Source: Mesaphorura yosii (taxonomy: Eukaryota > Arthropoda > Collembola > Poduromorpha > Tullbergiidae). Taken from it: DNA of 64,000 bases. The notes beneath the pieces are model-generated. The model was given only the letters and a program-made list of their open reading frames with translations, searched no databases and had not been told where the DNA came from. Within the stretch, counting starts at the first letter, position 1, and each line of letters begins with the position of its first letter. The position numbers and the translations under genes are program-made. Positions 2,231 to 54,020 of the stretch are shown here, in pieces. Where the stretch lies: contig WIXG01000156.1 in the NCBI GenBank assembly GCA_009869945.1, positions 62,001 through 126,000 on the forward strand, given 5' to 3'.

Positions 2231-5200
2231 ATGACGAAGGATAGGTTGGCGGCCCTCAAAGCGGTAAGTATCACGTTCAGCATTTCATGCTGGCCTCACT
2301 GTCCTAGATTCGTTCCTTTCGTATTGAGCGCACCCACAATTCCAGTTCCAATTACCTACCATTATGTGTGTGCCTCCGATGCGATGATGCAATTCTGTTT
2401 TTGTTTATGTATGTCACATTTGTAATTCGTTTTCATTTACTCGTCGCTCGTACGTGTCGTACTTATTTTCATTCCCATAACTCGTACGAATGTTCATCGT
2501 AACATTTAGTTCACTCTCGTTTTATTGCTGCCGTAATTTCCATATCACAGGATTAATTACCCATTCCCGCTATGCTTAATTAACTCGACTGCTACGCATT
2601 ACGCAAGCAACCGTACGCAGGTACGCATCCATCCGTGCATCTCGTTTTAAGTTGAGGCGGCGACTTTAAAAACCCGAAGCGTTTCTTTGCTTGTGCTGTA
2701 ATATGCAAAGGATAAAGGAAAAGGCCACGCTGTCCAGAAAGGCTGTCAGACGTGACTTTTCAAACGAAGACCGAGATTCGAAATCCAAGTTACGATAACT
2801 TCACACATTCACTATCATCGTTTTTCCACAATCTCCACTCCGTTGATCGAATAATTCTACAAGCTGTGTTTTGTTATTGTGATAGTTGCAATTGTTATAC
2901 TTCCTTTGCACGACCAGTACGAGTAATATTTGCATAAGTCAGTCAGACCGGTCGTAAACTCTCATTGAATGTGTCACAGTGCAAAGTTTCGACTCAATGC
3001 AACCAGGAAAACAAATAAAATATGTCCCTCATGATTCATTTCGCATTATTTTAATGCGCTCGTTTTATTGCAGTAACTTAGTCACTGTGAGTGAGTGAAT
3101 GTAAAAGGAATTTTATGCACCATTTTAACGGTTTTACGACTCAGAGTGAGTCATTAAACCGGCAGGACTGAGTCTTCTTAATTAATCGGCTGCATTTAAA
3201 TGGTTATGGCTCACTGCGCGGTCCTGGAGGAATTACACGGTTTAATGAACACGTTTGATTTTGCGCGTGTGGATTGCTTCCAGTTGAGCAACAGAATTGT
3301 ACAGGACGCGACGTTGTATGTCATATCGAGACTCGCGAAATTAATTGCACCCCAAGACATTAAAATATTATAGTTTGCATTCTTATCTCCCTTTTGTGTG
3401 TGTTCATAAACGCTTAAATTAGTCATCATATGAGCTCCAGACGCGTGCGACACATAACTTCTTTATTGGTTTATTCGAATTCAGATCCCATAAGGCGTCC
3501 TAAACTTAAAATTGCACAGTTATGAGTTTGTTTGGGCATTTGGTTCTTCCGAGCGTCTCGAATGTGGTGCTTAAGTTCAACTTAGAGCTCACATCAACAA
3601 AGCATTTCAGCATTACACAGCATAGTCTGACATTTGAAATAGCATGGCGTAATGGAGTTGGGCATAGCGCTGGAGTGCTGTAAAATATCCATCGATTCGG
3701 CTTTTATTGATTAGCAAAGGCCTCCTCTCTTTTACTTTCTTCGCTCCGACTTGTACTATTTCTTGCGATAGTTTGGCATGACCGGCACAAAGCAGCCAAG
3801 CGAAGTATTTATGTATATGAACTCACTGTATATTATTCGTGACCGCAAACCTATGACAATTAACAATCCTCCAAAATTTCCGGTGACATTCCAAATATGA
3901 CACGGTTCCTGAATTAAAAATTCAGGCTGAGGCGTGCCAAAGAATTTCAGAATTTAATTTGCTTTATTAGGTCTCTGGCTTTTGTCAAAGAACAGTGGGA
4001 CCACAATTACCACGGCGAAAACTAAGCAGTGACCGTTTTTGTTTGTTTTTGCAAGGCAGGCCGCACAATGCAGCGCACAAAGTCGACACAGTGCTAAAGC
4101 ATTGTGCTTCAAATGATCGTCGATTGAGTTAATATTTTAATCCTGTCAATTAGTCCTCCGTGTGTTCACACAGTGCAATGGTATTTGAAAACCATAGCGG
4201 AAGTCTGCTCTTTACCCTTGCTGTCATTTCTAGGCAGCTTACTACACAGTTGCTTGTGATTGCTGCAGCCGTTATAACTTAATCCTTCTGGAAATGTAAA
4301 GGTCATGACACTAGAATAGAGCTCCGCTTGAGCAATGCAGGTAGTCACTCAATAGTCTATAAATGAATACGTAATCGGTAGCTAAATGTCATAAACATGT
4401 TATTATAGCATTGAATTGGTGAGCAAGGCTACGTTTAATTGAAGGTTTACCGTTGAGAAAGTTTACACAAGTTGTTAGCACAGCTGTAATTTTACTGGAG
4501 CAAGCACGGTGCTCTCCTGCGTATGGTGTTTAACGAGAAACTCGAATGAAAGTGAAAATTGTAAATTGGGAAGTGACGAGTTCATTACAAGTCGACTCGC
4601 ACTTTTGCCTCGTCCATTGTTCTGCAAGCAGTCGGATGACCGAGACGCCCACATTCATCCAAGCAAGCAAGGCGTACATTAGGTGAGAATCCTCAATGAA
4701 TTGTGGGCACAGTTCATGTCATGTCGACAGATCCAACAAACCTTTGCGGCGGTGTTGACATGAGGCATGACTCAAGAGTAATAATGCAGGCAAAGCATAC
4801 GACCACGCGCAGACGTGATTCATGGAAGTCGCGATAACCACGCTAAATGTGTGCTTCGGGAATATTTTCCAAGAAATGTTTGGATTTGCATTCTTGGAAC
4901 CTCGAGTTCAGCTCTTCACGCCTTCGGCGTGCGTATTTACATATCCACGAGTTTACATCACAATTATTAAGCGTACTCGAAATGTCTCATGCATGAGTGG
5001 GAGACAGAGACCACAAACTCATTAGGCTGAGGTTAAGTCAGTTGCACGAATTTTGTCTGACCACAAAATTACGCAGCTTATCGTCATCTTCTAAATTCTT
5101 TCTGCATTTCGTTTCTTCCATTTACCCCAATTGGCAACTAGACGCTGGCAACAAATAAACTTGAGAGTAGCCGGGCACTTTGCCATATTGATCAAATGTT

Positions 5201-8200
5201 GTCCTGTGTGAGTACTGGGTAACATGCAACCTGAGTTATGGCTTTTGGCATTTGACTTGTCTGTGCCAGCACCATTGCGTCCCATTCAGTGCGCCAAATG
5301 TTCCTATTGCTATCGTGGTGTCAAGAATTTGACTGTCCCGAGCATGTTTGGTTACTCAGTTTTGAATTGCATGTGAAATATCAGCTCGTCGCCGTGCAGA
5401 CAGGCTCACGAGGTATATCGCATTAACACTCGGATTCCTGTGCTCGCGGTGGTGGCATATTTCATTTAATTTCTTTGTACAGCTGTGAGTTTCGAATTCC
5501 ATCATGTCATTTGTCATCTTATCTTGTAACTTCCACTTTCCCTCGATGCAGCTGGGAGGTTTTGCAAGTGGGGCTTCCCACAAAATCGAGCAGTTATATC
5601 GCTAATCCCATTTTCATCGTCGTTCTCGTCATAATCATGGCAATATCCGATGTCAGTGGCAAATGGCGAAACTGGTGTTGGAGTGTTGCACAGAGAAGCG
5701 ACTCTCTTTACTGCCCTCACATGGACATAAGAGCAGCCTTCATGTAGAAGCAATATCGTTTAATGGTACTGACACTCCTTACATGGCGCGACCTTAGGAC
5801 CATCAAATTCATATTTTTATTGCATATCAAATGGGCAAAGCGTAAAATTTGTGTTGGGAATGAATTTTTCAAAAACACGAATTTACACGATGGCACAACA
5901 CTCCAACACGCGCAAATAATAATGTGCAATGAATTTGCATATGAATAGCTATCATTTTGTTACCATCATCTGTAAATCGTAAGACGGAAGAAGGTCTGAA
6001 GATTGTATAATGAGATATCCTGCATAATAGGATTCAAAAAAAGTTAGGATGACAATCAAATGATTGCTTGGTCTTTTGCTTCTGTCAATGGCGACACGAC
6101 GCAAAAGCTTCGATCTATCAATAGCTTAGATTTCATCTTTGCATAGTTCAGATTAAATGCAATTCCATTTCGCTGTCATGACCTACAGAGCAGAGCAACG
6201 TTCGGGTCACAGCTTTCCCTTTCTACTCACATCAGCATTCATCCATGGATTTCTCCCGTTCTATTCTGAAGTGGCCTAAAATTAGACACAAAAAAGTGTG
6301 GGTGCTGACAAGCTGAGCGGGAAAAAATGCTAAAGGGGAAGTTCAAAAATATGTGCCAATTACAATAGGCTAGAAATAAGTTGTTCCGCTTGAGAAATTG
6401 CGAAAAAAATTGAGAGAGTAGGAAGATGCATTTTGACACTTGATGTTTTTATATCGTCCCATCGCATCATTCATGAAACATCAAAGCATTGATTACAACA
6501 GGCAAGCAATCAAGAGTTGAGCACTTTAGCATCAAGTGCTCCGAACAACATAACAGCAGGTAGGCAGGAGAAAACCAATTGAAATTATTTTTACTCGCTG
6601 AGGACGATTCTCGAGTCGTCGACTCGGTGTACATTTTCAGTTTGACCGCTCCTCCTGCTCGCTTTTATTTCTCTATTCTGCGTACCATTGATTAAGTTTA
6701 GAACTTGACATCTAATTTATTATGCAGACATATCCTATTTATGTACGCGTTCACTTAATATATGCCTACATAGAATATATTAAGAAAAACGAGAGATGTG
6801 ACATGAAAAGCGTAACATCAAAGCGGCGGTGCAGCATTGGGCGAGTTGAGGAGAAAGAAGCACTATGTTGTGCGACTCTGGACGGTAGGAGACTTGAAGA
6901 ATAGAGCGAGGTTAAGGAAGAAGCGACAGTGGTGGTGGTACCAAAGATGGGCGGTGAAAGTGGATAACTACTGTTTAGTTACACAACCCTGCAGGAGCAG
7001 CGAAAATAACACGAGGCTGTAAAACTATGCTATGGCATGGCATCGCAGAAAGAAAAGCGAAAGGCAAGAGAAAATGAATTTAAAGCAACGTCATGTCCCA
7101 CTCTTTCACTGCGTATGTCTGGGTGAACCTGAACGTAGACTGTAGACGTCTTCAGATATGAGCAAAATATTATGGCACACCGTAGAATTCATCTAGAGTG
7201 GTGCATTGCGCTTGTGCCATACGTGCGCTAAACGCGTCCTGTTCCTACAGTAAAGCGTGTACGTGAGATATGAATTCCAAAACTCTTCGCCAGCACCAGC
7301 ATGCAGACGACAACCGAGAGAAAGTTTCAGAACTCGGCTGCTTGGAGGAATCAGAAAGGAAACACAGACGCCGAATGAAACTAAGAAAACATTTCGTGGA
7401 CGAGATTTTGTCGTGTTATCCGGGAAGGCTGGGTCTGGGCCCACGTGACTTGATATATCTCAATTCCATTCCACGGTATTGTTTTTGCATTGTTAGGAAC
7501 ATGTTTTTCGCATCGAACAGGAGCGGAGCAAGTTGAGGAGGTTACACTGCAGTGTGAGAGACATTGAGAATTCAAACTCAGGAAGAACCTTTGACGTCAT
7601 AATTAATTATGAGCTAACAGTCATGCCTTTTATTTTGTGCGTACGCTGAATTTATTTTAATTGGTCCATGTAATAAATTATGTTTGAAGAGGTTTCGTTC
7701 AATCCAAGCACAGTGCTTGCCTGTGACAAGGTCTATGATTTTACAAACTACACTATACGCTAGTCCACATAATGAATTAATAATCTGATGCATCAACAAT
7801 TCAGGCCAATTCCATACAGGTCACGAGGGCCACTCGTGTCCTTAGATTTAGCGTACCTTCCTGCGGCATTGTTCAATCGAATGTGAAACAGCCCACATAT
7901 GGTACGGCGGGAGAAGACACTTCTCGGCTCAAGTTACAATCTACATAACTAGTCGCAAATTCTGATGCTTCTCGACTACCCGCTTTGACATTTCCACAAA
8001 CTCCGTTCACTTCTGTGGGCCAGCCGGCCAAGCCAGCAGGGCAACAAATAGGAAATGGCAAATGGCAACGTACGTACGAGCATTAATATATTCATTGCAC
8101 TTCCTCAATACCCCTCTGCTTGACATGAAACCCATAATTGGCTTAATGGCTTCGAGGACTGGAAATTTACCTGAAATTATGCCTACGTACAATACAGTGC

Positions 8201-11200
8201 ATATGATGCAATGGAGAGTTGAAGCCTCCGCCTCATGCGCCCGTGACTTTCGATTAGTTTGAAAATACTGAAACAGATAATACGGAACTAAATGCGCGTT
8301 TAAAGGCGGGTTCACCATGCCAAATGCTGCCAATCCTTCCATTCCATCCGTGTGTAGGAGTAAGATTAATGGATCTATTTTGGCATGACATAAAAAGTTT
8401 TCATCAAGCCTATAATTTATGACCGCATTAGAATCGCAATGTTGTCGCCATAAGATATGCCAAATACGAGCAGATAACAAAATTCCGGATATGAACATTA
8501 TTAAATGCTCACAAGGGGAAATTATGGAGCTGTAAAGTAGACTACTCGGTCTGCTCAAATTAACTCCAGGCCCAAACGTCTCCATTTCTGATCATAAACT
8601 TGATGAGCTGTTTGTCTCTTGTCGGTCTTCTCCTACTGAACTTCTCATTCCGAATCTTAATTAATTTCGCTCGTTTAATTACAACATAAATTAATAACGA
8701 GATACATCACCACAACGACGAAACCCTTGATGAAGCATGGAAACTCAAGGTGGAGAATACGAAACGGCCTTGGCAATATATTTTGGGATCTTAATATTGC
8801 TGCACCTTTTTTTATAGAGATGTAGCACCAAAAATATGTGGGTATCAACGAATACAGGTCATGGCACCTTTTTTATAGATTACGCTAAAATTCAGCAGCT
8901 CGTACTTTTACTACCGGTGCAGCATTTGAATAAAACAGAAGCACGAATTACACGTCATCCACTTAAAATACAAATTTTTGCACTTTTCATCAAAGATGTA
9001 AATGTGGAGGTTTAAGGCGGCCCGGGACTACAACTAGGCGCCCGCCAGGCGCCGCGAAAAGTAGGTTGGGGTCAATTTCATTCAGAGTAGCTGTATTTCG
9101 CTTAAAATTTTGTGATATTCCCTTTAAATGTCATGATGATTGTAACGATAAGGATTTAGATCATCCCCTAATGTGTGCCCCAGGAGCCGCTAAGCGTAGG
9201 ATGAGGTCACGAAAATTTTTCTAAGTTCCAAGAAATAAAATTATATTTGCATAAAACGTGTCAAAATATGGTCTCATGTCTATCTGGGACTTAGGAGGTC
9301 AAAGGTCGCACTGTCTGAGACAAATTTTCATGTCCAAAAATTGTCGACCTCGAATCAACCATATCTTATAAAACTTGAAGAAATAAAAAGTGCAAGAATT
9401 TTATTTTTAAGTGGGTGACTTGCTATTCATATATCTGTTTTAATGAAGTGCTGCGTGCGTTTTAAAGGTGGGCTTGACAAAAGTGGAATAAAAAAGTGCC
9501 CGAATTTGCATTTTCAAAATTCTATATTTTTAGTGTTACATCTGTATAAAAAGTGCGACCTAAAAGACATCCCATATATTTTGACCGTTCAGTTGCCCAT
9601 TTTGTACTCTGGCACTAATTTCCGTCTATTTCGAAGAAAGCATTTTGCTTTTCCAACAGACCAATGTTCTTTGTTATGTGAAGTACGAGCCGAAGCGAAA
9701 AGTAATGTGGAACTTTTCGTCTATAATTCGCAGGAAACCTTGGCAAAACTTTTGATTTTAATTCTACCTCGATATTTTATTTGACCATACTTTTATTCCT
9801 TTTAGACGCAATTCCCATTTTGGGAGGTAGCATTCGATCTTGAATAAAGGGTATTGAGTTGAGGCTGAAGCCAAAAGCTGGAGACTGACAGGCACTTCTT
9901 GATGCTTTTATCTTGTCCGGATTCTTTGAAATGCAATGACGTAATTATGGCTGCTTTTATCAACTGCCTGCTTCTACTACGGTGTAATAAACCTTGTCTA
10001 CTTACGAGGAGCATTCCATTTAGCGGTTAGGAGCCGACACAACATAACCCGCATGAATAATGTACGATTGTGACACATGGAATTGTGGTATGGTAATTGG
10101 ATATAGTTGAGTGATGTAAACGTGCCCACATTAAAACGCCGTAAATTTGTCCAAATGTGGTGGAACTAGAATCCGAACTCGTTCGTATGCTCGCAGCTGT
10201 GCTCATTAGGTTGATTTTTGATTGTGATTTGCAGGCCCAGAGCGACGACGATGACAACGGACCTGACGACGTGGCTGTCACGGTGGAGAGCCGTGACGGC
10301 TTCATGGACGAGTTCTTTGCGGAGGTAACTTATGACACATGACATAATATCAAGACCGTCTCGTCGAGCGCTCGATGAAAATGCTGAGACGACACTTTCA
10401 GTGCGGGACTGAACATTTTTCATTTTTTTGCAAGGTGGAAGAGATACGGGAGATGATAGACAAGATACAGAACAATGTGGAGGAGGTGAAGAAAAAACAC
10501 AGTGCCATTCTGTCCGCTCCAACTTCAGATGAAAGTAAGTTAACGCAAACTAAGTGCGTTTTGTCACACAAACTATTGACATTTCAACACGATTCCAGTG
10601 ATGATTCCGTGAAACACTTATTTATTAAGTCGGTCGACTCCATTCCGTATAGAAATTCTGCGTTTTTGTAGCAGATTGTATTAGATGAAAACTAAGTGAC
10701 TATTGCCATTTCGTGTGACAATTAGTAATCTCAAAGAATACAATTAAAGAAGTAGAGAGCATGTCACAGACAGGACGACACGGAGGAATCGTAGTACCTT
10801 GCTAAAGTGGTTTTTCACTTAATGAAACCACATCGCCTGTAGTGCGGGAGAAACTACTCACGGCAGTGATGCCACTAGACCCAAATGCATGGTAAAGAAG
10901 AAACCCATCCGGAGGCCAGCTTTCACTTTGCCAGCTTTGGAAACACGCCGACATGCTGTGGTAGCAAACACGGATAATAGATTCCTAAATCCTGACACTA
11001 AAATCCTTTCTGTTTTCATTCATCTTGTCAACTAAACCATCTTACATGTCATCTTCATCTTTTGTATCTCCCTTCCAGAAATGAAGCAGGAACTGGAAGA
11101 CCTCATGGCAGGAATAAAAAAGACAGCGAATCAAGTTCGATCGAAGCTGAAAGGTAATTTGTCCCTCCCATTGTAATGAACACGTAATCCCACTAACGAT

Positions 11201-14200
11201 GACCAGTTGATTGACTTGTCTTCCTTTCTTGTGCAGTCATTGAGCAAAATATTGAGCAAGAAGAGCACACGAATAAATCATCCGCTGATCTCAGAATACG
11301 GAAAACACAGCATTCCACGCTGTCGCGGAAGTTTGTGGAGGTCATGACGGAGTACAATCGAACTCAGACGGACTACAGAGAGAGATGTAAAGGCCGAATA
11401 CAAAGGCAGCTGGAAATCAGTAAGTGCCCACACTGTTACTAATTAATGACTCATGCCTCATCAACCAAACGCGAGTCGACGACTGAATCTTGTAACTGTT
11501 TTTTCAGCTGGGAGAACGACAACCGACGAGGAATTGGAGGAAATGATCGAACAAGGAAATCCTGCCGTTTTTACTCAAGGGGTATGAACCCACGAAGAAA
11601 ATCTCTCTGAGGCTTCTCATAAAACTCATTCAAGCACGACTCCGTGTGTATTATGTTTAGATTATTATGGAAACGCAACAAGCAAGACAAACCTTAGCCG
11701 ACATCGAAGCCCGACATTCTGATATCATTAAACTAGAAAACTCAATCCGTGAGCTGCATGACATGTTCATGGACATGGCGATGCTGGTAGAAAGTCAGGT
11801 ACCCAGTCACCGTTCAAATCATCATGAAATCGCTTTATGATGTCCGCTGTGTAATGCGACCTTGCTAAACCTGGTTAAATTGCTAATTTATTCCTGGCCT
11901 GTGCTTTCAGGGTGAAATGATTGACCGAATTGAGTACCACGTCGAGCACGCGGTGGACTACGTTCAGACTGCCACTCAGGACACGAAGAAGGCTCTCAAG
12001 TATCAAAGCAAAGCTCGACGGGTAGGTTGATAAGTATACATTTCTTGTTCTCTAAACTGCAACTCTTGACATCTCATCATTGTACTTAACCCAATTGTGT
12101 GGGCTTAAATATCAAATTACATTACACTCCATCCACACTTGGCTGCTGGCTCAGCCAGACATTGGGCACGGCCGGGCTACTCGCAACTTTTCCTTTCCCA
12201 CAAATAATTAAAATCCTTTTCTCTCTGAGCAATTCGCTCTACTTTACTTTATTGTGACATTTGTCTGTCTGCTTCAACTTTACTGCTCCACTTTCGAACA
12301 TTAAAGAATTTTAATTTGGGGTTTGGACTCTTTATTAGGCGCTTTATTTGCTACCATTTCAAAGTTGTCGTGTCAACTTGCTTGCAAAGATGTTTGTTTT
12401 TCTCTCATTCTATTTGCATACCCTTTCACTGGCAAACTGCTAAACTCTTTTAACAGCCGTTTCCCTCAGTTTGCTTCTGCTGCTTGTTGCTTTGAGAGCA
12501 TTAAAATTCAACACTTCTCATTTGACGACAGAAGCGCATTGCTTTTGGCTGTCAATGCGAAATCTGAAACTCAACACGAAACTCGAATTTATTTCCATGT
12601 AAGTTTGTTCAAACGTTCCAAGAATCCGGCCATAGCCGTTGGCTTTGTATGCTTCATTATCGATCATCTCTAACCCGCTCACGGATCACGATGGAAGCAG
12701 GTGCCACCATGATAGAATCAATCCCACGCAGGATTTGACACGATGGCGTCTTTTCCCACAAACTTTGCAGGGCAGTTTTAAAGCCTTTCCCAGGAGAAAG
12801 GATAAAGATGAAATTTCAATTTATGCAGAATTTACTGCGTCTTAAAATCATAATACCTCCTTTAACGACTGAAACATAATTACACCGTGAAATAAACTAG
12901 GATTTCAGCCTCCGCTGTTGCTCGGTGACAACATGCGCTCGTTTCCCGACCCACTCTCACCAAGCGAGAGTCAATAAGTCTCGGTGATAGTTTGTCGTGC
13001 ATTTTTGTGTGTAAGCGTTTTTATGCTCGCAATTCGCAGAATCATGGCTCGTAATATTTTAATGTGCTTCATACGAGATGCTAATATTCCTGTTTATTAT
13101 TTTGTCCGACGCATCACGCCATTTCGAGATGCACTACGAAAGTACAAGTGGAAAATGCCACGGACCAATTGCAAGGCCAGCCGTTTTCCAAAAACTTTGC
13201 TGTCTGAAATATTATTTTCTTGAAAAATAACGGATTTAGCTAGGATTCATCTCCGCAGTGGCCTCGGCTCTATTCACGGCCGCCATTCATATGACCATAA
13301 CCATTTTTAAATTAGAGTGTCACCGAATGCTACCAATGCCTCGGCTATGCATCTGCGTTTTGTCCTGCCAATTTCTATTATCATGGCTAGACTGATCAAC
13401 TGATTTTTTCTGCATTATTTTCATTATAAATCGGTTTAGCAATATGATTTGCCGCAGTAATTCCTTTTTTATTCCTGGATAATGTTTACTTTTTTATCTC
13501 GCTTGCACTTAGTCAGCAGCCAGATTTACACAACAAAGCTCATATTGTCGAATAAGGCCTGCGTTGAATGATCAAGATCATTGTCTTATTGAAGATTTCA
13601 TAGCAAGGCGCAAATACAGACAGTGGAATAATGGGTTCATGCTGTCAAGGGACGTCAAGTATAATTAGGTGTCACAAAAATGTAGTTAGGCCAACTGGAA
13701 AAGTCGTGACACACCTCGACGCACAATTGCACTGGTCTTACTTGACTTGAGTGGTTTCAAGACGTCGACGTCTTTAAATACAACGTGAGTATTTGCTAAT
13801 TATTAGGTTTGTGGCACAACTATTTAATTTGAAGCATGCGGGCCTGCAATTACTTCAAACCAGACAAATTGCAACAGGCATCACAGGCTGACATGATAAT
13901 CAATACTGTCTAGGCGTTTCTTAAATTAACCTTAAAGCAACTGCGGATTCACCTTCAACTGTGTTTGTGAGAAAATTCGCCAAAGTATTTTAGACATTTC
14001 ACCTGTTCGTACGCGGAGCCAATTTAGGCGTAAGAATGGATTTATTAAATGCTTGTAGGCGCACGCGTTCGCGTCAGACTGTGAGTAAGGTGGAAGCGGC
14101 GTCGGCGCGTGTTATAATATCAGAGTTGGGAGAGCTGAAATGGAAAGCCGTTCCTTTTGTTGTTAAATTCATCCGTGTAATACAGTATTCCAAATTGTCT

Positions 14201-17200
14201 TTCTTGCTGCTTTTCCGCTTTCTCACTGCGTGGTTGTTTCTTTGTAAATCTCCTTCCACTTCAAAATCGATGGGTTTATCCCGCATTATGTACTCTGGGT
14301 CGCCGTGCCCATTTCGTGAGAACAACGGGTCTTACATGTTAGTCCATGCCATGTAAAAGGAATTATAAACTACAGCTAGGGGCGCGGGCTTACTTTCATC
14401 CACCTAGGCCGTGAATATTGTGCATTTTGCGTTCCATACAGTGGTGGTGTACTGAGCTGAACTTTGTACACCACCACACGCCTGAGCCTGAGATCCAGCA
14501 GCATTATAATCAGTACTCCCCTCGGGGAATTTGTATTTCCACTTCCAACTGCGGTGCACCATTTCACTTGACTCGTCGCTCCTTTTGTTACGCTCCGTTT
14601 TCATGACACCGCCGCCACGCTGTTACGGCGCGAACCTGTAGTTTGAGTGGGACGTCGAGCAGCGGAAAGAAACCCACCGACAAGACCTTTGCATTTTTCC
14701 ATTTCTTTTCTGTCTACCTCCATTCCATTCTTTGCATATTACTGACACGTTTCCTGGAAAGTGGCTCGGTGTATTTTGGGTGTGTTTGTTGATATACGTG
14801 TGTCTCCTTGGCTTTGCTGGATGTGTCTCACAACGCACATGATTAGGCGTTACTACACGCTGGCACGAAAGTGTCATTATTGGGCTCAGTCATGTAATAT
14901 TATTGTAAATGGCGACGGCGGTAAACTGGTAGAATTCTGCTAATGTTGTGGTAGTACGTGGGTTCGCCTTGGCAAACCTCGTTCAAGGCTACCATGGCAG
15001 TCTCTCGTGGCAAACTCCACGAGAACTTGCACTATCATTTTTCTTCCTTTCTTGGGCTTTTGGGGTCCAGAAAGTGGATACAGCCATAGACATAGATGTA
15101 CACAGCAGCAGAAGAGAAAGAGAACAGCAGACTGTGCAGTTCCATCGGTCCACGTAGTTGGTACCACCGACTGCATCAGCCCAATACGAGCGCATTCACA
15201 AACGGAACCCAAAATAAAGTAAACGGAGAGAGCGAAAGAATTCAGGAATCGACTTGACGAGTAATTTCCAAACTGTTCTCCATTCTTCTCCACTCGGAGC
15301 TCACTGTTCTCTGGGCTGTGCTCTAAATGTCAGTAGTGCTGCTGCTGTTTTCTCTGCGAAGGAGAAAGATCGACAAATAGTAGATACATAATCTCTCATT
15401 GTACAGGCTTCTTGTTCTCTTTCTCCTGTGTCCGTGTCTGTATCTTCTTTCTGAGCCACATTCAGCTGCTGACTGATTTCACACAAAAAAGACCTTAATT
15501 CCTTCCCGACGACTACTTTCTCGATTCTTCTCTACCTTTCCCAAATGTTTATCCAGATGTAACCTAATGCACTGTTTATTGTCTGACGTTTCCAGTCTGA
15601 ACAAAACAAATGTATACATATATCCAATAATAATGTAATAAAATACAGTAGTAAAAAAGAAATACTAATAAGCTAAGCACTTGGAGCTTAAACACAAAAA
15701 TTCTCTCTTCTTAAGACTTTTTTTCATTTTTCTGTTCTACCTAGCAGTCGGCCTGTCAAAAGTATTGTTTACTCTGCATGCATCCAATTCAAGTCATTTT
15801 CATTGAATGCATTCGCTTTGAAGACACACGCGTCCGTGTTCATTGAAATACCGCTTGTCTTGTCCGTCCATCACACCTAATATGCGAAATTACCCATTCA
15901 TTCTAATATTAACAAAGCTTGCTTTTTGCATGGTGTCCAATTCTGCCTATTTGCTTGCTTTAACTGACTTTTATGCATACTTTTCCATGCCCTCATTTCT
16001 TTTTGTTTTACTTTTGTACATTTTGTAGAAAAAAATGTTCATCGTAGTCTGCTTCGTGTTTGTTGTATCGATTGTGGTAATTGCTCTCACCGTCAGCCTC
16101 ACTTCCGGAAAACCCAAAAAGGAGTAAATTTCACACGGCTCAGAGTTTGTGAGCGAATGCGTGCAGCCGTAGAGCCGAGTTGTGCGAGGATGGATGAAGT
16201 TTGAGACCGCCAGTCATACTCACAACTAGTTGCGTGGGCCGTGCGATTAATGCTCTTCCTGGTTTATGGCACGGGATTTAATACTTCCAGCTATTGATTT
16301 CGTATTCCCGCATCGACGCTGCCAGTGATAATGTTATTATTAGCGTTATATGGCGAATTTTTTACAGACTTAGAAGCAATGAAAGCTTTTTCAGTTTTCA
16401 GTTTTCACTTACTTTGTAGCATATCTAATTTCTATGTCTTTCTTTTGTTCTATTCTCTAGTTTAGTTTTTTGTACCATACCTACAATTAGTGTATCTGTC
16501 ATTTTGTTTTTTGTCTATTTTTATTTTGCCTGACTGATTGTTTTTTATACTATATGCATGATCTCAACTAATAAATACTGGCCTCATTTATTTTATTTTT
16601 ATGCCCGCACTAAATTCCTTCAACTTTCACGCTGTTTTCTTTAACCAGGTTAATCAGACGCGATTTTTTTAATACTACAAACTTCTAGATATGGGTGTAT
16701 GAAATACTGAAATAGATAATCTACACTAAATGTAGAAACATGTTGATGAAACGGGAAGCGCGACAATTCTTTCACCTCTTTGTTTGCATTAAAATGTGAG
16801 CTGGTAACTTTAACTCACGAAAAAATGATGGATGATCTGATCTGATGGATGCGCTGGTTGTTCGCTGTCATAGTCGAGCCGTTCACAAATTTGCGCAATA
16901 ACGAATATGCATCCTAGAAGTGTGGATGCTGATACTTCCAGTTGGTATCTTACATTATCCTATCCGAGAAAAGCATTCGCACAAGGCTGCCAATCAAATT
17001 GCACGGGTAGAGGATTATATTCTTATGCGCTAAGTGGGCTGTCAGATGTTGAGAACCGACTTCGTTCCGACACTTAATAAAAATCCCTCTTGTAATTGCA
17101 GTAATAATAAACGAAACGATCAGCCAAAGAGAAAGTAGTTCACGCATTCTGCATGTGCTGCCTTGAACTTCTTTCACCAACATAAATTCCCGCTCCACGG

Positions 17201-19484
17201 CGTAAACAGTGTGAAAATGTTATTAGCTCATCCTTCTCTTTGCTCTCTTAATCAGAAAATCAGAACATTTTTTCTAGCGAAAGTTAAATAAAAGCCTTGC
17301 AGTGTAAAGATGCTGTACAATTCTAAGTCTAGCTTTCAACCGAGCAACACGTTCACTCACTGCCTCTCTCGTGGCTCTTGTTACCGAAAGCTTTTACGCA
17401 AAAACAATATAAGTTGCAGCATGCCCAACCACAAGGCAAAGCGTCGTCGTCAAACTGACGCCAAAGATCCACCTAGTGACTCTGACTCAGTGCCAAGTCA
17501 ACCCACTCAGTCAAACGTGGATATCGCCAAGCTGATCGAAAAAGGGTTTCAAGCAAGTCAAACTTGAAATCACCAAAGAAATTGCAACGCTTGGCTCATC
17601 AATACAAGAATTGTCTACATAAGTTCGATCCATTGAAACCAGACTTTAAAAAACTGAACGTGAGGTCAAAGGTTCCACAGAACACAGAAAAGATGAGAAT
17701 AAAGAAATTGAGCTGTTGGGCATTCAAGTTTAAAAAATTAACCTAATCATTGTTGGTTTACAAGAAGCTGCAAATGAGACTAAGACTAATCTGAGAGAGG
17801 AACTCCGAAAGCTGTTCAAATGACCATGCAAATATTAATGAGCTTGGATGGCTTTTACCAAACGAACTCTATATTTTGAAAATTTTATGTCTTACTATTA
17901 AGTGCCAAAATGCAAAGCAGTCCAGTTCTTTAATGAATACTTTGCTTCCAAGAATGTCGTGCATAATTATCTTACTTCTTTTTCTGAGGATTTTTCAATA
18001 AATTTGGGTACTCTAAGTTCCATTTTAATGTTATTATGCTTTGGAATTCGTTACCTAATGACATTGAGAAGTGTAATTCCTATTTTATTTTAAGAATAAA
18101 GTTAAGACGTATTTACTTAATAAGCGGGCAGCTAATGCCAATCATTGATAATACTAATTACCAATTTTCATTCTGATGTTAACTTTTTCATTTTGCTTGT
18201 CAAGCAGTGTAAGACCACGTGAGTGGGGTCTGCTTGACTCTGTAAGTGTACTCGACATGTTGCTCCTTACAAATTGCATGAATAAACAATATAATACAAT
18301 ATAGTTCCCTTTTTTATATTACTTCGCCTTCGCTGTTGCTCTCAACAGACAGAAGGATGAGATTTTTAATGCCATATATTTTTCTTAAGCGAAAACCCTG
18401 TTCTACTCTACTATTGCAAGTGCACAACGTCGTCTCCTGTACTACGGCCGTGCGATCTGGTCTTGAATGACAGCAGCTTTATTCGTCTTCGGTTTAAGTC
18501 ACAACTCAGAGAAAGGAAAGAAAGCGTTCAATGATATAAGGCCTGACACCTTTCGAAATAAAAAGACGAGCCGTGCGGCTCGCTGAAATACCTGCTTTAC
18601 TTTTCGCATCGACTGAGGTTTTACGATTAAACGCTGTAGCTGCCAAGCCGAAATCCAGACGCACACATAAATTTCAGATAAATTTTTCTATTCCATTATC
18701 CTGCACATCTTCACTTTTGAAATAAAACCCGAGCAGTCGTAGTCGGGTACTTAAACCTTGTACATCAAGCTATGGAATTTGCTTTTCTGCCAACCCATCA
18801 CCTCGATTGTTGGATTTTTATGTTGAGAGTTGTAAAATTTCGAGTTCCATTTTCCTTCGTCTGGAATGCTTCATACACACCTTCACTTCCATTTTTCGGC
18901 TTGACGCCTTTCCAGTTTTATGAAACCTTGGGCTGCGTACCTTGATATCTTAAGAGGCTTCTTTTAATCTGCCGTAATAGACTCTGCGCTACTTAAACAG
19001 AAGTGAACTAAACCGAGCATGTATTGAGTAGTTTCGTTTATTACTCTATTTTTGCCACTGAAAACCTTTCTTGTCAAAATGACCCGGTTCGTTGTTAAGA
19101 CTTCATGCGTCATTATTCATGACTTTTATTTTTCCTCAATAAAAGTTAATTCTTCCCTCTCCGACATCGCTAGTTTCCTAGCTCTAGTTATGATGTTGCT
19201 TTGCGAACGAAAATAAAATGTCAGGACATAAATTGCTCCATAAATGGCCGAAAGTGCTGCCTGCTGGAATGTCTTTCCCTGCAATCAAAAAGCCAGAGCC
19301 AAGCCAGCCACAGGTTCATTGCCGATGTCTTGAGTTGTACGCGACTATTTATATAGCAGATTGTCATTAATCTAATGAATATATATTTTTAATTTTGCAG
19401 AAGAAAATCATGATTATGATATGTCTTCTCATCCTTGCAATCATTCTGGTCTCTGTTATTTTGTCATCGGTGGGGTTGGGATAA
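2231..19484 (+). CDS. Syx1A: Syntaxin 1A, plasma-membrane Qa-SNARE, with two alternative 3' exons
   Basis: Target-membrane SNARE that pairs with SNAP-25 and synaptobrevin to drive vesicle fusion at synapses. Shared exons: 2231-2263, 10235-10324, 10435-10534, 11079-11153, 11237-11419, 11508-11581, 11661-11798 and 11911-12021. All have GT-AG borders and join in frame to 268 residues. Translation starts [11 protein letters not shown], as in insect Syx1A. The acidic linker, the Habc bundle (about residues 30-150; [26 protein letters not shown]), and the SNARE helix (about 190-255; [30 protein letters not shown]) follow in order. The ionic-layer Gln is residue 231, the last codon of exon 7. The body then joins exon 16029-16127 (300 aa in all) or exon 19401-19484 (295 aa), close to the usual 290-300. 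The start context is AACAATG. Intron 1 is 8 kb, while the core introns are 74-544 bp. Identification is by strong recalled similarity to the Drosophila protein. Confidence 0.97.
2264..10234. other. Syx1A intron 1 (8 kb)
   Basis: No exon is supported in this interval. The largest open frame (8007-8585, minus, 192 codons) has no recognisable domain and no splice or start support. The main structure is the long inverted repeat at about 8740-9610. A size of 8 kb between the tiny first coding exon and exon 2 is the kind of place where neuronal enhancers are often found, but that is inference. Confidence 0.7.
8740..9610. repeat. long imperfect inverted repeat, foldback/MITE-like
   Basis: The left arm (about 8740-9005) and the reverse complement of the right arm (about 9361-9610) share segment after segment in the same order. 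Examples are GCAGCATTTGAATAAAAC at 8919 against GCAGCACTTCATTAAAAC, the segment CACTTAAAATA with its TTTTTGCACTTTT neighbour, and ATAGAGATGTAGCACCA against ATACAGATGTAACACTA. The arms are clearly diverged, with small indels. The central 355 bp has a GC-rich patch (9018-9053) and a diverged direct repeat: GAAAAGTAGGTTGGGGTCA near 9056 and AAGCGTAGGATGAGGTCA near 9192. There is no open frame of transposase type. This fits a non-autonomous foldback element or an old inverted duplication. Target-site duplications were not resolved. Confidence 0.75.
12022..16028. other. Syx1A interval between exon 8 and alternative exon 9a
   Basis: Four kilobases without a supported exon. It follows the exon 8 donor (CGACGG|GTAGGT) and ends at the acceptor TTTTGTAG of exon 9a. 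It contains a perfect 12-bp inverted repeat at 14441-14477. No open frame here resembles a known family. Confidence 0.65.
14441..14477. repeat. perfect 12-bp hairpin in the Syx1A transcript
   Basis: GTGGTGGTGTAC at 14441-14452 is followed after 13 bases by its exact reverse complement GTACACCACCAC at 14466-14477. It would form a 12-bp stem with a 13-nt loop in the pre-mRNA, about 1.55 kb before alternative exon 9a. It could act on splice choice or be incidental. Confidence 0.7.
16029..16127 (+). CDS. Syx1A: Syx1A alternative terminal exon 9a (membrane anchor with basic tail)
   Basis: The exon follows a pyrimidine-rich acceptor ending TTTTGTAG and reads [20 protein letters not shown] followed by [12 protein letters not shown] and a TAA stop (32 residues). 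It joins exon 8 in phase 0 and begins with the KK that normally ends the SNARE juxtamembrane segment. One strong hydrophobic span follows, and then a six-residue charged tail that would lie outside the cell or in the vesicle lumen. A polyadenylation signal AATAAA at 16570-16575 lies 443 bp past the stop, so this can be a true transcript end. It replaces exon 9b rather than adding to it, because each carries its own stop. Confidence 0.9.
   Translation, partial: KKMFIVVCFVFVVSIVVIALTVSLTSGKPKKE
17421..18300 (+). mobile_element. degraded, internally deleted non-LTR retrotransposon
   Basis: The 5' part encodes an ORF1-like protein: a basic start ([20 protein letters not shown]), then after a frameshift near 17560 a helical, coiled-coil-like stretch, then [18 protein letters not shown]. 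That last motif resembles the start of the RNA-binding fold of LINE ORF1 proteins. Almost all of the reverse transcriptase is missing. The far C-terminal motif returns at about 18019-18140 as [20 protein letters not shown], with another frameshift. A 9-bp inverted repeat (GTCAAGCAG at 18199-18207, CTGCTTGAC at 18230-18238) and an AATAAACAATATAATACAAT tail end at about 18300. At least three reading-frame lesions make it non-autonomous. It lies in sense orientation between Syx1A exons 9a and 9b. The family is of LINE type, clade not resolved. Confidence 0.78.
18199..18238 (+). repeat. 3'-end hairpin of the non-LTR element
   Basis: GTCAAGCAG (18199-18207) pairs exactly with CTGCTTGAC (18230-18238), and further internal pairing (AGACC with GGTCT) is possible across a bulge. 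It lies about 60 bp before the AT-rich tail, the place where some LINE reverse transcriptases recognise their RNA. Confidence 0.65.
19401..19484 (+). CDS. Syx1A: Syx1A alternative terminal exon 9b (canonical membrane anchor)
   Basis: After the acceptor TTTTGCAG this exon reads [20 protein letters not shown] followed by LSSVGLG and a TAA stop (27 residues). KKIM plus a short hydrophobic anchor that ends almost at the stop is the classic syntaxin-1 end, matching the recalled fly (KKIMILICL) and vertebrate (KKIMIIIC) forms. It joins exon 8 in phase 0. Splicing to it skips exon 9a and the retrotransposon. Identity of the exon is firm; relative use of 9a and 9b cannot be read from the sequence. 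Confidence 0.93.
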   Translation, partial: KKIMIMICLLILAIILVSVILSSVGLG

Positions 19485-21503
19485 AAATGTGATTAGAGAC
19501 AATCAGCAATCAGTTCACACGAAGAAGAAGATTGGGCGTGCGTTCAAGCGACGACTGTTCGATGAAATTTGTTGTGTTTTCTTTTCTATTGTATTTGCGA
19601 TTTGTGATAGACATGCTAAGCAAAGTAACAATTGCACGGCAAGATTTCTCCTCGGAAGAGTCCATCGGAAGAAATAAGTTACAAATTCATTTCAAGATAT
19701 GGAAATTTTCGTCGACACAGACCCATTCTCCTTTGTAAGTTTAGAGACAGCATCTCTCCTTCATAATTCTCAATTGGCGGAATTCTTTAATACGGAACCT
19801 GGAACGAACTACTTAATTAAGATTGAATCCGAAAAAACCTCATGTTAAATCTAGTCCAACTCTCAACTTTGCTTTTAGAGCAGCACTACGAGCGCCGAGA
19901 AATGGTTGAGCATATTGAAAGTGAGGGAGACAGAAAACTAAATTCAGTTCTACCGAAACCTTTCTTTAGATTTTTAAAAACATGAGTTCTGGTGCAGCGA
20001 GACGCACTGGGGAATGATCGAAGCCAACCATTGCCATCTTCTGATTCGTTCAAAAACTCAGAGAAAGCAGTCTTTCTCTTGTCCACCAAATCCTGCCAAA
20101 ACGAACACAAAACAAACTTCAACTTGACTTTCAGAGAAATTAAACAGTGTTTCCTGACAAGGTGTAGGGATTAGAATTCAGTGGCACGAGCTTTGCGGTC
20201 AACATTTGCAGTCTGCCTGAAGTCGTGATTCCTGTTGAGGTACAAGTACCAGTGCACGGGACAAAGAGGAACTCAGAAAAGGGTAATTGTAGTCAGATAA
20301 ACCTTTCCTAGTAGCACTCAGCACAATTAGCTTTTGCGTGCAAATTTGTATAAGGCAATAATATACCATTGGCATTGGAAAATTGTGAGATGCAAAAATT
20401 CTTGTGAATTGTGAACGTGAAATGCGGAGCCGAAATCCGGCTCAGAATGTCTCTTCCCCTCACTTTCTCATCTCAGCCTTTCTAGGCTTCGCTTCTTGTG
20501 ATAAATGCCATCAAAGGCAGGATCTTCATAGCGCAAAGCTTTATTGCATGGACCCTCCCAAATTTAGGAGTCTCACAACGATTTCCTACTATTTCAATAC
20601 GTCACAAAAATACGTAACTCGATTTCCACATTGAATATGCAACTAAATGTACTTACGATTTGAGAAACTACTTACTACTAAAGCTAAACTACGAAGTACT
20701 TATGCTGTGAGAAGATTTCTTTCCTATTCTTCGTATGAGGTTTGATTACCTAAGTCATTATAACATGAGATTTTAGTTTCTCAGTTTCGAAGAATCCGAA
20801 CTATGATTGTGGAGAATTGAAGCAGATTAAAAAGACGGATGCCGAACCACAAATAATCTTGTTCTGTACTAAGGTAGTGCTAGAACTTAGCATCGTTGCT
20901 GTTTAAGATGGTGATTCATAAGATTAAGGTGAAAATAACGGGGTCGCTCGAAGTTGGCTACAACTACACTGCCTGTTTTAGTGTATTAGAAATGAAAGAA
21001 TTATATCAAACCATAGCAAAACAGAGCACATTAAAATTATGAACTATTGTACTAGTGTATTACCATAAACTACTTATTATGCGACAGCAAGAAACGAATA
21101 TTAGAAGTATTATTACGGTACGATACTTTTACTTGTTGCGAGTTGATACGTATTTATTTTCTAGTTGAATCTAACAAGTTACGTAGCGTAGAACTTGTTG
21201 GCTAGGTTCAAGTCGGGTCAAGAATGCCGTGCGTACTTGTGTCAGCATGAATTCTGAGTGCACATTTTAGTTTCTAGTTGTGGCCGTGGCTTCTATTCAA
21301 GAGTCATTGTCAGCCACTACCTTCTGTAACTGATAACTGTTCATGTAACTGCCGAAAATTACAAATCTATACTACTTTGACTTTTTCATACTACCATGTA
21401 ATGATTGGCAGTCTGGCCAATACAAGCATTGTCGATACATTATGTGAATAGTTTCAAGTTGTTTTAATAGCTTTCACTGTGCTTCGGTTCGATGTCATTT
21501 CAG

Positions 21504-23566: not shown

Positions 23567-26500
23567 TCATTTGGGCAACGGGAATCCATCAGCGTCCTCT
23601 GCCCTTGTTTGCGGGTAAATTCGACGGAGCAAATTTTGGTTTGGATGCAACTGTATGGTAGACTTCCTTCTTGGGCTGGCCAGTTTCAGTTTGTCGCTTC
23701 GTCCATTAGTAATTAATTCATAGTCGTCGTACAATGCCATCAAATCCTCACCAGCATCCTTAAATTCCATTTCCTCCATTCCTGTGGCAGATGGAAAGAA
23801 GTTAATCTCCTCGTTGCAAGTCATATATAAACTAAAGATTAAGTGCTTCAGGGCGCAGTATCAATATCTCCTCAAAGAATTCTTAGTCTTCTGCAAGCGT
23901 ACTTGTAACTACGTCTGACAACTGCACAGCTTACTATTTTTGCTCACTGTGGAGGACAAGCTATATGGTACTTGACACTACTATCTCCCATAAGGTCATT
24001 CACGCTCCAGAATAGCGAATTAGATTCGATAGCCTTCCGGGCTCTTACTTTAATTGGATCGCTGGTTAGTTTCCTGCTGCTTCCTCGAAAAACTCGTGAA
24101 TAGAAATCGCGATGAGCCCGGCTATTGGGGGCATTTGGTCATATATTGCCGTAAGTTGAGCCAAAAGAATATAAGAAAGGATGGAGGTAAAGTTACACTT
24201 GTATTCAGAAACCTCATACGCCTTCCACATGTAATTGAGTTCATATGTTCATGCTTTACTTTCTTCTTCCCATCGTATCAATATCTCCATTAACACATTT
24301 ATATCACATTTGTTTGAAAGAAACGTTCAAGCATCCCATACACACACCAAATTTGGCACATGTACATTATGATTAAAGTTAAGAGGAAAAGATGTATCAT
24401 TTTGTAATTTCTTGACATTTCCATTCGGTACTGGCAATACAAACGCAAATGCTTCCTGCCTTATCATGTGACGATCACCATCATTTATCTTGCAGTCGAG
24501 AAAACATTTTGTTAAGAAAAGAAAGTTGGCTCATTAAAAGTAAACTCAGCGAATTTACTTGTCTCATCAGTCTCATACTCAATCCCCTTAAATTATGGTA
24601 ATACTGCGACAGAATGTCGACGGTTGGCGAATGTTTCTTACCTTCTCCGACGTACTAATGAACAAAACAGGCTTCTTGTACATGACATTAAATTTTCTCA
24701 CAAGTCGTCTCCAAGGCGGTCGGATTGCAGTTGTGTTCATCATCCCAACCACGGCACGCGGAGTCTCAGCTAAATCGCCTCCCGGAATCCAGGCCGGAGG
24801 ACGAGCGCAGTGTCCAACCTGAAAGAATACACCTTTGCATTAGGAACATAAACGCGGAACGCCGGTTGTTGGCAAAGAGCGCGTCTTACATATTTAATAT
24901 TTCTAGAGCGCGTAACGGAGCGCCTGGGACTGAAATTATGCAATAAGACGCCGGTCCTGCTACAATATTCACAAAATCGGTTTGTCCATAATGTACTCGA
25001 GTTTTGCACACTTGCAATGCGAAGGGAGTATTTTTATGTTGCAGTGGTAATATGAAGGGACATTTACAATCATGTAAAAATGAAATGGAGAAAGTTGAGG
25101 TGTATCTTGTTTTTTCCATGGTAGCGATTATGTTCAGGAAAGTTTTTCCGTTGTGCAGGACTGTTTGACAATTTTCCTTGAATTTAAACATGCATTCTGT
25201 GGGTTGTGAACGACGGTAGAACCAAACACGAAAGGGGGACGCTGGTACGTACAGGCACCGTTCAGCTCGACGCGCTGGAGTGTTCATGAGAGAATTAAGG
25301 TTGACTCAGTTGACTGATGAGATGTCACGTTTTTCGCCTGTGGCCCCATTGCCCACAGCCTCGTTGGGACAAAATGAGAATCTCAAGCAAATTCTGCCCA
25401 CTTTCCGACGAAAAAAGGCTATCGATACTAATATATATGAGCCGTCGCCATTTCATCTTCAAAGAGATCACGGAAAAGGAACCGTCACAACAAAAGAAAT
25501 TCTCTCCCAGAGTCTCAATCAATGTGGCCGATGGAAACACGATATTGAACTCAAAATATCGATATCTGTGAAAAATAAATCCGATGGGCTTTTGTGCAAG
25601 GTGACAAAATTGAATTTCTTTGAAATTCTTCATGGGTTTTCATCTTTGTAATCTTTTCACTTTAACCGCCATTGTAAGCGCCAAGTAGGATGAAAAAGAC
25701 TCTGAAAATGAAAAGATGATTGTCCGAATTCCAGGAAGGAGAAATGAAGACAGCATGCAACCTCGTTAATGAATTCGGTGTTCTCAATTAAATAATAAAT
25801 TCATCATTCTTCTTTTCAGTACTGTGGGTACCTGACATTTTCTCCAAATTTTGCCAAATATCTTTGGATTTACAGGATGCAGGCAGAAAGATGGATGAAG
25901 CCAGGATGAGATGAATGGTAACTTGACCGGATCAAAACGTGCAGAAAGAGCCAAAGTGCAATCCTCATTTATCAGTTGAGACACAGTCTGGGCCGGGCGT
26001 TTCACTGGCCGAATGAATAGGAAACTGCTCAACCTTACCTTGTAAGCACTCGGGGCCCAATCAACAAAAGGAAGCCTGCCTCTTCGTGTGCAAGAGCCTG
26101 ACTTAAGTCCAGAAAGAATGAAATTAACGTCGTTTGGCATGACGTCCCCACGAAACAACAACGAAACTGCTACACACGCTACAGCTACACGCTACGGCGA
26201 AACTGTATGTATTTTCCTTGTGTTGTATAGCAAGTTACCATTTGATTTTGCGACTCAAACATCCCTCTGATTGCCTCCCAATCTTTTATGGTACGTCTGT
26301 TGAGTCAAGCTTATTAGTCAACCCTGGCATAAGAGAGCACTTGAATAAGTGCTCGCTGGACACTTCCCCAGCTTTAACTTACGTGTTCAGCAGAAACAAT
26401 CAGGCACATGACATAAGTGGGAAATGGATTCTTGGGAAAGGAACCAAATTCGTCTAAAATTCCCGAATACTAACGCTGGATCTTAAAATGAGTTCACAAC

Positions 26501-27534
26501 TTGAATTGGGAACAATAAGATGAGATCCACGGCTGAATACTGAATGAAAAGCTACCTTCTGCGTAGCGAACAGAAGCTGTCATTCCACTGAAAAGTTGTG
26601 CAATAAGGCGGTTCAGATTGTGATATGTTGGTCGATAATTTGCCAAATGTGTTCCGCAAATTCTGTACAAAGCCTCGTTATCGTAAATGAAAGTAACATC
26701 AGTGTTGTCCATCGTTGAATGTGTGGTCAAAACACTGTTAAAGGGTTCAACAACTGCTGTGCTAATCTGTAACCCAAAGAAATTGTCTGGGTAGTCCCGA
26801 ATACCAAAATAAGTCAAAAACTTTAGTTCGAATTCAACGAAATTGAAATATTGCATACATTCGGAGATGGGAAGACGTCAAGAGAGATTCTGGTCTTGCC
26901 GAAATTCGCGCTGAGCTTTTCCAAAAGATAGCAACAAATCCTGAACCGGTGCCACCACCAATACTACGACAGGAAGAACCCCTAAAAAATGTTTTCAATG
27001 AATCGAACCCGAAGAATAATTTTCACTTCATCGGGTCACAAAATCCATTATCTGTGACGAGTGATTATCATTACCTGAAGAGAGTCACACTTTTCGGACT
27101 GCTTCCGAAGTCTGTCGATAATGACTCCAATGTATTCTCGTCCAGTTGTGTAACATCCCTGGCAACATTGTTCGCTGCATCTTTTTTTCCTGAGATCATC
27201 ATCTCTGGACTGAACAAGTAGCGATAAGCGCTAGTTCGAACTTCATCTGTGTGGCAAATCTTTAGCTCAAGAACACATGAACGAAACTCACCTACAACTG
27301 TAGGTTCCGAGTCGAACAAAATGGCTTTTGGGACATAGTGGCCGTGGATTTGCTCAGAGAAGAACGTGTTAGAGGAATCTTGGTCAGGTCCAACATTCAC
27401 ACAAGCCATTTGTCCACTGGGGTAAATTCCATGTTCAAGGCAAAATAGTTCCAACAGGCATGTCCAAGTTGCACTCCAGCCTGACCAATATGCAGGAGGA
27501 TACACTCCGAGTGAGGCTGGGAAGTTTTCGACAT
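23567..27534 (-). pseudogene. alpha-tubulin pseudogene, introns retained
   Basis: Likely exons, read from high to low coordinates: 27292-27534, 27075-27246, 26859-26981, about 26530-26766, about 26280-26453, 26039 to about 26160, 24642-24818 and 23567-23781. Recognisable alpha-tubulin pieces include [48 protein letters not shown] (the GTP-binding loop), [67 protein letters not shown] and GMEEMEFKDAGEDL. The frame is broken after CW in exon 1, after AR in exon 2, twice in exon 3, near the end of exon 4, in exon 5 and in exon 7. In exon 7 the expected VHW reads VH-stop (TAG at 24655-24657). The C-terminus is a basic 40-residue extension instead of the acidic EEY-type tail. Introns at conserved borders rule out a processed copy. 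A fast-evolving but functional gene with assembly errors is the alternative; the nonsense codon and number of lesions argue against it. Confidence 0.85.
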
Positions 27535-52524: not shown

Positions 52525-54020
52525 ATGTTACGCATCTGTAGCCTTATTTTTATAGCATTGGCTCTTAACGCTTATTTCGTCCTTTCACTCTCCAACAGGG
52601 ACGATGAGATAGCCGAAAATCAAGTGCCGGTTGACGAGGACGATCACACCAAAAGTGATTCGTCGGAGAACGTCACGCAGATTTTACGGGCCACCGTGTC
52701 AACTAATCCGAACGACATTGACTTCTACCTCTACTACGATAAAAAGTAAAAACGAAACACCTGGAACAATCCTTAAACTTGTAATATGGTTCAATTCTGT
52801 CTAGCAATCCAGACTTTGCGGACAGACTTTTTTTGGGAGACACGAGAAGCGTCAAAACAGCTCACTTTGTGATTGGCAAACCCGTGATATTCGTGACACA
52901 TGGATTTATGTCTAGTTATGATATGCCGGATACTTTGGTGCCTCTTGTCAAAAACGGTGAGAAATGCTCTCCAGGCAAGGTACAAAGTCATAGCTAAAAG
53001 TATAATCTGCAATTCAATCGTTCTGTGCAGCATATCTGCAAATGGACTTTGTGAACATAATTGCGACGGACTGGCGTAGGCTCTCAACAGCTGAAGGCTC
53101 TCTTGCGATATTCACATACTTCACCGTGATGGAAAACGGTGTGCCAATTGTGGGAGAACGAATCTGTAAAATGATCAAATTCTTAATAAAGACTAAAATC
53201 ATTACTGGCCCACAGGATGTAAACATCCAATGTCAACTACTTTGTAACAAAATCCAAACAATTACTAGTTATTGCAATTTCAGGTGCACTTGGTCGGGCA
53301 CAGCTTGGGAGCGCACGCTAGTGGAGTTGCGGGGAATTGTGTCAAGCAAAAGACAGGGAAGCTTGTCAACAGAATTACCGGCTTGGACCCAGCTGGGCCG
53401 TTATATAAATTTGTGAAAGACGACTGCAGGTTGGATGCGTCTGATGGCGCGTTTGTGGACGTGCTTCATACCGACATTGGAATGCTCGGGAGCGATATGA
53501 AACTTGGGACAGTCGACTTCTACGCCAACGGAGGCACAGGACCTGCTCAACCGAATTGCTTAAATTTTACCTTATCGACTCTCGGATCATTATTCAGCGA
53601 AGGTAGGATGGCAAACGCAACTATATTTCTTTGGCTTTTTAATGTAACTCATACCCGGGTTCATTTATCATAGCGGTGACCGGCGTGTGCGCTCACTCGC
53701 GTGCCTACCAGTATTTTGCGAGGTCAATTCTCCGTACGCCGCGTGAATTGTATGGCTGCAGATGCGTTGCTACGATGCCATTGGTCCTTCCGAGCACATG
53801 CTATAGTCCCACCAATATTTGCAATGAAAAAACGCTTTACGGTGAATATGTCCCCAGGACGTAAGTGTCGAATATTCCTTTGGATAAATTTGTTGGAAGT
53901 GATAAAGCGCTACCAACATATTGCAGGGCACAAGGCACCTTCTACATAAACGTGGAGAATGACCTCCCGGGTGTTGGAGTGGATCCTCTGGAGGGGGTCT
54001 CTGCTTCTGTATCCGGCTAA
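52525..54020 (+). CDS. secreted lipase of the pancreatic lipase family
   Basis: An alpha/beta-hydrolase that cleaves acylglycerols or phospholipids. Exons 52525-52745, 52805-52956, 53031-53218, 53284-53602, 53674-53860 and 53927-54020 join in frame to 386 aa, with introns of only 58-75 bp. The ATG at 52525 begins a signal peptide, MLRICSLIFIALALNAYFVL, followed by an acidic linker. Then come FYLYYDKNNPDF, VIFVTHGFMSSYDMPDTLVP (oxyanion strand) and IIATDWRRLS. The nucleophile is Ser194 in VHLVGHSLGAHASG, the acid Asp222 in GLDPAGPLYK, and the base His301 in CAHSRAYQYFARSI. All three are present, so the enzyme is probably active. The protein ends in a short beta strand (GTFYINVENDLPG), without a PLAT domain, like insect and collembolan neutral lipases. 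Substrate cannot be told. Poly(A) signal at 54141-54146. Confidence 0.95.

Follow-up and report, generated by a model that had tools for sequence, protein, structure and literature searches.

Can one syntaxin gene supply a single SNARE body with either of two membrane anchors? This question arises from an earlier note on this DNA, which proposed that the last common exon of a syntaxin-1 gene can be joined to two different terminal exons, each encoding an anchor of its own. The window analyzed here, that is, the whole stretch of 64,000 bases, corresponds to bases 62001-126000 of a 172 kb contig (C156) in a genome of 93 Mb distributed over 1127 contigs.

The syntaxin-1 gene

The gene body common to both predicted proteins was delineated through GT-AG borders, a single open frame on joining, Pfam domains, and alignment with syntaxin-1A. 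It comprises the following features:

2231..12021, + strand: common body of syntaxin-1, exons 1-8
2231-2263, 10235-10324, 10435-10534, 11079-11153, + strand: exons 1-4
11237-11419, 11508-11581, 11661-11798, 11911-12021, + strand: exons 5-8
11911..12021, + strand: exon 8, which encodes the latter half of the SNARE motif and has a phase 0 donor

When joined, exons 1-8 form one open protein of 300 amino acids with the proximal terminal exon (9a) or 295 amino acids with the distal one (9b). In the joined protein, the Pfam Syntaxin family (PF00804, the N-terminal Habc domain) scores 146.8 bits against a cut-off of 26.7, and SNARE (PF05739) scores 71.6 and 74.3 bits against a cut-off of 26.8. Syntaxin-1A of solved structures aligns with residues 3-272, and Gln 231, located in LVESQGEMID, is the same residue in syntaxin-1A according to this alignment; it is presumably the SNARE zero-layer glutamine. 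A Habc domain, a SNARE motif with its glutamine, and a single C-terminal transmembrane span, the features by which a syntaxin-1 (Qa-SNARE) was recognized, were all found. Exon 8 ends at 12021 with ...KARR, its last codon complete, and is followed by GTAGGT. Retention of intron 8 would extend the frame through 12022-12030 to KARRVG and then a stop, yielding a syntaxin without a membrane anchor.

Two predicted terminal exons

Downstream of exon 8, the predicted terminal exons are as follows:

16029..16127, + strand: alternative terminal exon 9a, coding sequence and stop (32 residues, stop 16125-16127), with a divergent anchor and a charged tail
19401..19484, + strand: alternative terminal exon 9b with stop (27 residues, stop 19482-19484), with a conventional syntaxin-1 anchor

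The acceptor of 9a reads TTTTGTAG directly before 16029, and that of 9b reads TTTTGCAG directly before 19401. Each frame is open from KK to its own stop, and both fit the exon 8 donor in phase 0. The locus therefore shows the arrangement that marks an unc-64-type gene, namely one SNARE exon followed by two terminal exons of the same phase, each with an anchor and a stop.

The rarity of such exons was assessed by collecting frames of 20-45 codons behind an AG that is not preceded by G and that has at least 10 pyrimidines in the 16-base upstream stretch. A frame counted as hydrophobic when it contained an 18-residue span with a mean hydropathy of at least 2.5. With this filter, which was chosen when the finding was already known, the whole window yielded 325 short frames (172 on the + strand and 153 on the - strand), among which 5/172 and 0/153, respectively, were hydrophobic; one of these five is 9b reread from an AG 3 bases later. 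Hydrophobic frames that also start with two basic residues numbered two on the + strand and none on the - strand, and these two are 9a and 9b. Order-2 Markov shuffles of 12022-19484 (n=400) gave a mean of 0.07 hydrophobic candidates, and two leading basic residues were obtained in 0/400. Acceptors, frames, and shuffles together confirm, at the level of the sequence, the earlier claim that the exon 8 donor fits, in phase 0, two hydrophobic terminal exons that start with KK and carry their own stops. Exon 9a and the sequence 3' of it are present as a single copy in the genome. Another gene was considered as the source of 9a and rejected, as the genome search found no second copy.

Comparison of the anchors and paralogues

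The anchors were compared with a syntaxin-1A chain (PDB 2m8r/3hd7/3ipd), which we take to be the rat protein. Over the first 20 residues, aligned without gaps, 9b is identical to its anchor at 13/20 positions and 9a at 6/20; joined to exon 8, 9b scores 86.0 bits and 9a 76.2 bits against the same chain. Given these identities and scores, 9b is regarded as the conventional anchor and 9a as the divergent one. The mean hydropathy of the best 19 residues is 3.27 for 9a and 3.48 for 9b. In composition, these residues are 63% V/I/T and 5% L in 9a, vs 47% V/I/T and 26% L in 9b, and 9a alone of the two ends in a charged tail (SGKPKKE). The statement that the anchors share little sequence holds, with 5/24 identities after KK (permutation p 0.15). 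Because this is no more than permutation yields, an origin of the pair by duplication is neither supported nor excluded; direct repeats of at least 20 bases were not found in 12022-20600.

A search of the genome for the SNARE family returned 11 matches, 7 of them above the cut-off, including the syntaxin-1 gene described here. In a syntaxin paralogue on contig C81, the anchor is likewise preceded by an intron matching in place and phase (...SSARK, about 76 bases, then KKIIIIIVVLIILLVLGLVLWLSFR), which argues that an intron before the anchor is common to the syntaxin-1 gene and this paralogue. A 9 kb scan, reaching about 7.9 kb past the C81 anchor, listed no second KK-type anchor there. In the paralogues on C52 and C299, the SNARE motif and the anchor lie within one open frame. 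Compared with these three paralogues, a second anchor was found in the syntaxin-1 gene only.

Putative 3' ends

16128..16602, + strand: putative 3' UTR of 9a, with a T-rich tract (16383-16602) and AATAAA (16570)

A poly(A) signal belonging to 9a itself had also been proposed. AATAAA does occur at 16570, about 440 bases past the 9a stop. By itself, this hexamer is weak: the + strand of the window holds 79 copies of AATAAA, 6 of which pass a filter for downstream T that the one at 16570 fails. Its surroundings are exceptional: bases 16383-16602 are the T-richest 220 bases of the window on both strands (53%, compared with 49% for the next on the - strand and 45% for the next on the +), and runs of at least four T are most numerous in a stretch that starts at 16377-16387 (12, vs a maximum of 7 on the - strand). 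Neither the T-richness nor the T-run value of the 9a 3' region was reached in shuffled windows (0/60). The tract covers the 9a hexamer, yet it lies mostly upstream of it. Downstream of 9b, ATTAAA is found at 20139, and AATAAA is absent until 21656. A coupling of splice choice to polyadenylation through the 3' end of 9a is plausible, based as it is on a common hexamer within an exceptionally T-rich context.

Precedents in other animals

As described in the available text of PMC4946901, unc-64 of Caenorhabditis elegans likewise combines one syntaxin-1 body with two last exons for the C-terminal anchor (8a and 8b, giving UNC-64A and UNC-64B), and binding of UNC-75/CELF in the last intron favors the neuronal exon 8a over 8b. 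The original work on unc-64 is given here as cited in the accessible parts of PMC4946901 and PMC4290612, and the former describes two studies at odds over which isoform rescues locomotion. Several differences are apparent: the worm anchors are near-identical in their first halves, whereas 9a and 9b differ throughout after KK; in the worm it is the proximal exon that is neuronal, opposite to the order suggested below for 9a and 9b; and the worm has a CELF site in its last intron, whereas no UG-type site lies between 9a and 9b. The same portion of PMC4946901 describes a like choice between anchors in mouse Syntaxin 2, in which the level of a splice variant drops without CELF2. This is a syntaxin-2 gene rather than a syntaxin-1 gene, likened here by description and not by sequence.

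The fitting frames, phase, and stops, the improbability of the pair by chance, the single-copy locus, the T-rich 3' end of 9a, the C81 intron, and the precedents of unc-64 and Stx2 make it likely that one syntaxin-1 gene with two alternative terminal exons provides one SNARE body with two tail anchors. The interpretation in the earlier note is supported in part: two alternative anchors, each separately terminated, are the best reading of the locus, matching unc-64 8a/8b, for which the choice has been demonstrated by experiment, and mouse Stx2. With these precedents the idea is not new; the gene is a genuine instance of an established design rather than something new in kind. Among the literature matches listed, none concerns an arthropod two-anchor syntaxin; most subscription papers and the sequence databases lay outside this search, and absence from print is not claimed. 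The Syx1A paper on Diaphorina citri (PMC12470858), in its accessible text, describes one transmembrane region, and its main text contains no word beginning with "splic". In its available part, PMC11976915 names syntaxin only as a marker.

Alternative explanations for exon 9a

Exon 9a could be a relict, or an anchor seldom used: a former alternative exon that has stayed open but is scarcely spliced, leaving one syntaxin in practice. The divergence of its anchor from 2m8r (6/20, vs 13/20 for 9b) and the single transmembrane region described in the accessible text for D. citri Syx1A agree with this explanation. However, 9a retains 32 open codons with its hydrophobic span intact, its acceptor is good, and its T-rich 3' end is exceptional; we consider a relict unlikely. 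A spurious 9a, arising as an open frame by chance or as an assembly artefact, is scarcely credible, given that 0/400 shuffles yield such a candidate and that exon 8, 9a, and 9b lie on one 172 kb contig, each found once.

A further explanation holds that the 9a anchor, being basic on both flanks (KK before the span and SGKPKKE after it), redirects the protein to another membrane, for example mitochondrial or endomembrane, rather than tuning its behavior in the plasma membrane. In its accessible text, PMC2712456 offers a parallel in SLMAP, whose C-terminal tail anchors are also alternatively spliced, the two forms (TA1 and TA2) targeting different membranes. SLMAP, however, is not a SNARE, and TA1 and TA2 differ in hydrophobicity, whereas 9a and 9b do so only slightly. 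According to the same portion of PMC2712456, mitochondrial targeting of SLMAP came from low hydrophobicity and not from flanking charge, and the hydropathy of 9a is near that of 9b (3.27 vs 3.48). Redirection to another membrane is accordingly regarded as very improbable.

Proposed control of exon choice

If the gene makes two alternatively anchored syntaxins, the proximal exon 9a would be used where splicing to 9a and cleavage near 16590 win. Neuronal RNA-binding proteins of the ELAV/Hu or CELF type might suppress the 9a acceptor or its 3' end, so that the transcript reads on to 9b. Both isoforms would reside in the plasma membrane with different transmembrane packing (9a being rich in V, I, and F, and 9b richer in L), which, together with the different extracellular tail (9a ends in SGKPKKE), could cause their clustering and sorting to differ. 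The neuronal use of 9b and its controller are put forward tentatively, at somewhat below an even chance. CELF-like matches were found in the genome on C391 and C9, and an ELAV-like match on C204.

The UG-type and A-rich CELF motifs were taken from the accessible part of PMC4946901. No UG-type site (T[GA]TTGTG, [GT]TGTTGTG, or TGTGTGTG) occurs in 16129-19400, between 9a and 9b. T[GA]TTGTG (14 on the strand) is found within intron 8 at 12250, 14416, and 14944, and again past 9b at 19570. The second, A-rich motif (27 on the strand) is found upstream of 9a at 15484, on the 9a acceptor at 16028, between 9a and 9b at 16819, and past 9b at 19831. An exact TTGTTGTGT at 19569, past 9b, is one of three in the window on both strands and may well be due to chance. 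By counts, none of the CELF motif occurrences around 9a and 9b goes beyond chance. CELF control by analogy with unc-64 was rejected owing to the absence of UG-type sites between 9a and 9b, and the switch is not classed as CELF-controlled.

In Drosophila, as described in the available part of PMC8055025, ELAV proteins act through U-rich sequence downstream of cleavage to block proximal poly(A) sites, so that neurons favor the distal last exons. Their targets (nrg, ewg, and others), in which either last exon has a 3' end of its own, resemble the present gene in the arrangement of a proximal and a distal last exon. However, the U-rich sites described in the accessible portions of PMC8055025 and PMC11551757 lie downstream of cleavage, at the proximal site in these targets, whereas the 9a tract lies mostly upstream of its hexamer. 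The ELAV core motif T5N2T3, taken from the same portion of PMC11551757, occurs once in 16129-16750, at 16518. Its 8 sites on the + strand of the window show no clustering, with never two within 250 bases and a shuffle mean of 8.08. A U-tract binder is attractive because of the T-rich tract of 9a, but the position of this tract and the lone T5N2T3 detract from it.

Significance and ancestry

The present locus would extend the two-anchor syntaxin design, demonstrated in C. elegans and mouse, to a further animal, taken in the earlier note to be an arthropod, and its anchors are less alike than those of the worm. The 9a/9b pair would offer a natural comparison for the contribution of the anchor itself to fusion, and it makes an ancient vs a repeated origin of the exon pair testable with related genomes. 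The pair might be ancestral to bilaterian syntaxin-1/2 genes and have been retained in the present gene as well as in nematode unc-64 and vertebrate Stx2, while the RNA-binding protein in control changed from lineage to lineage (CELF in the worm and the mouse, and perhaps a U-tract binder in this genome). We regard this as doubtful, and it is weakened by the near-identity of the first halves of both worm anchors.

Other features of the window

Intron 8 contains an imperfect inverted repeat (15094-15126 and 15413-15445) with 33-base arms that are 73% complementary, located about 580 bases before 9a. Between 9a and 9b, the stretch at 17400-18300 resembles, by eye, what is left of a mobile element. 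Enlargement of the stretch between these exons by a mobile element was considered and rejected, since only the last 117 of the 901 bases searched recur (on C214, at 86%). No known RNA family reached its gathering score in the whole window, and the sole tandem array reported in it lies at 37770-37828 (period 16, 3.7 copies).

A Pfam scan of frames in the window covered 20/33 of those listed. At 26497-27505 on the - strand, two frames match the tubulin domain, one with 33.7 bits (cut-off 33) and the other, below the cut-off, with 24.4 bits; they are probably exons of one tubulin gene. Additionally, a frame at 53272-53670 on the + strand matches Lipase with 106.7 bits against a cut-off of 27.
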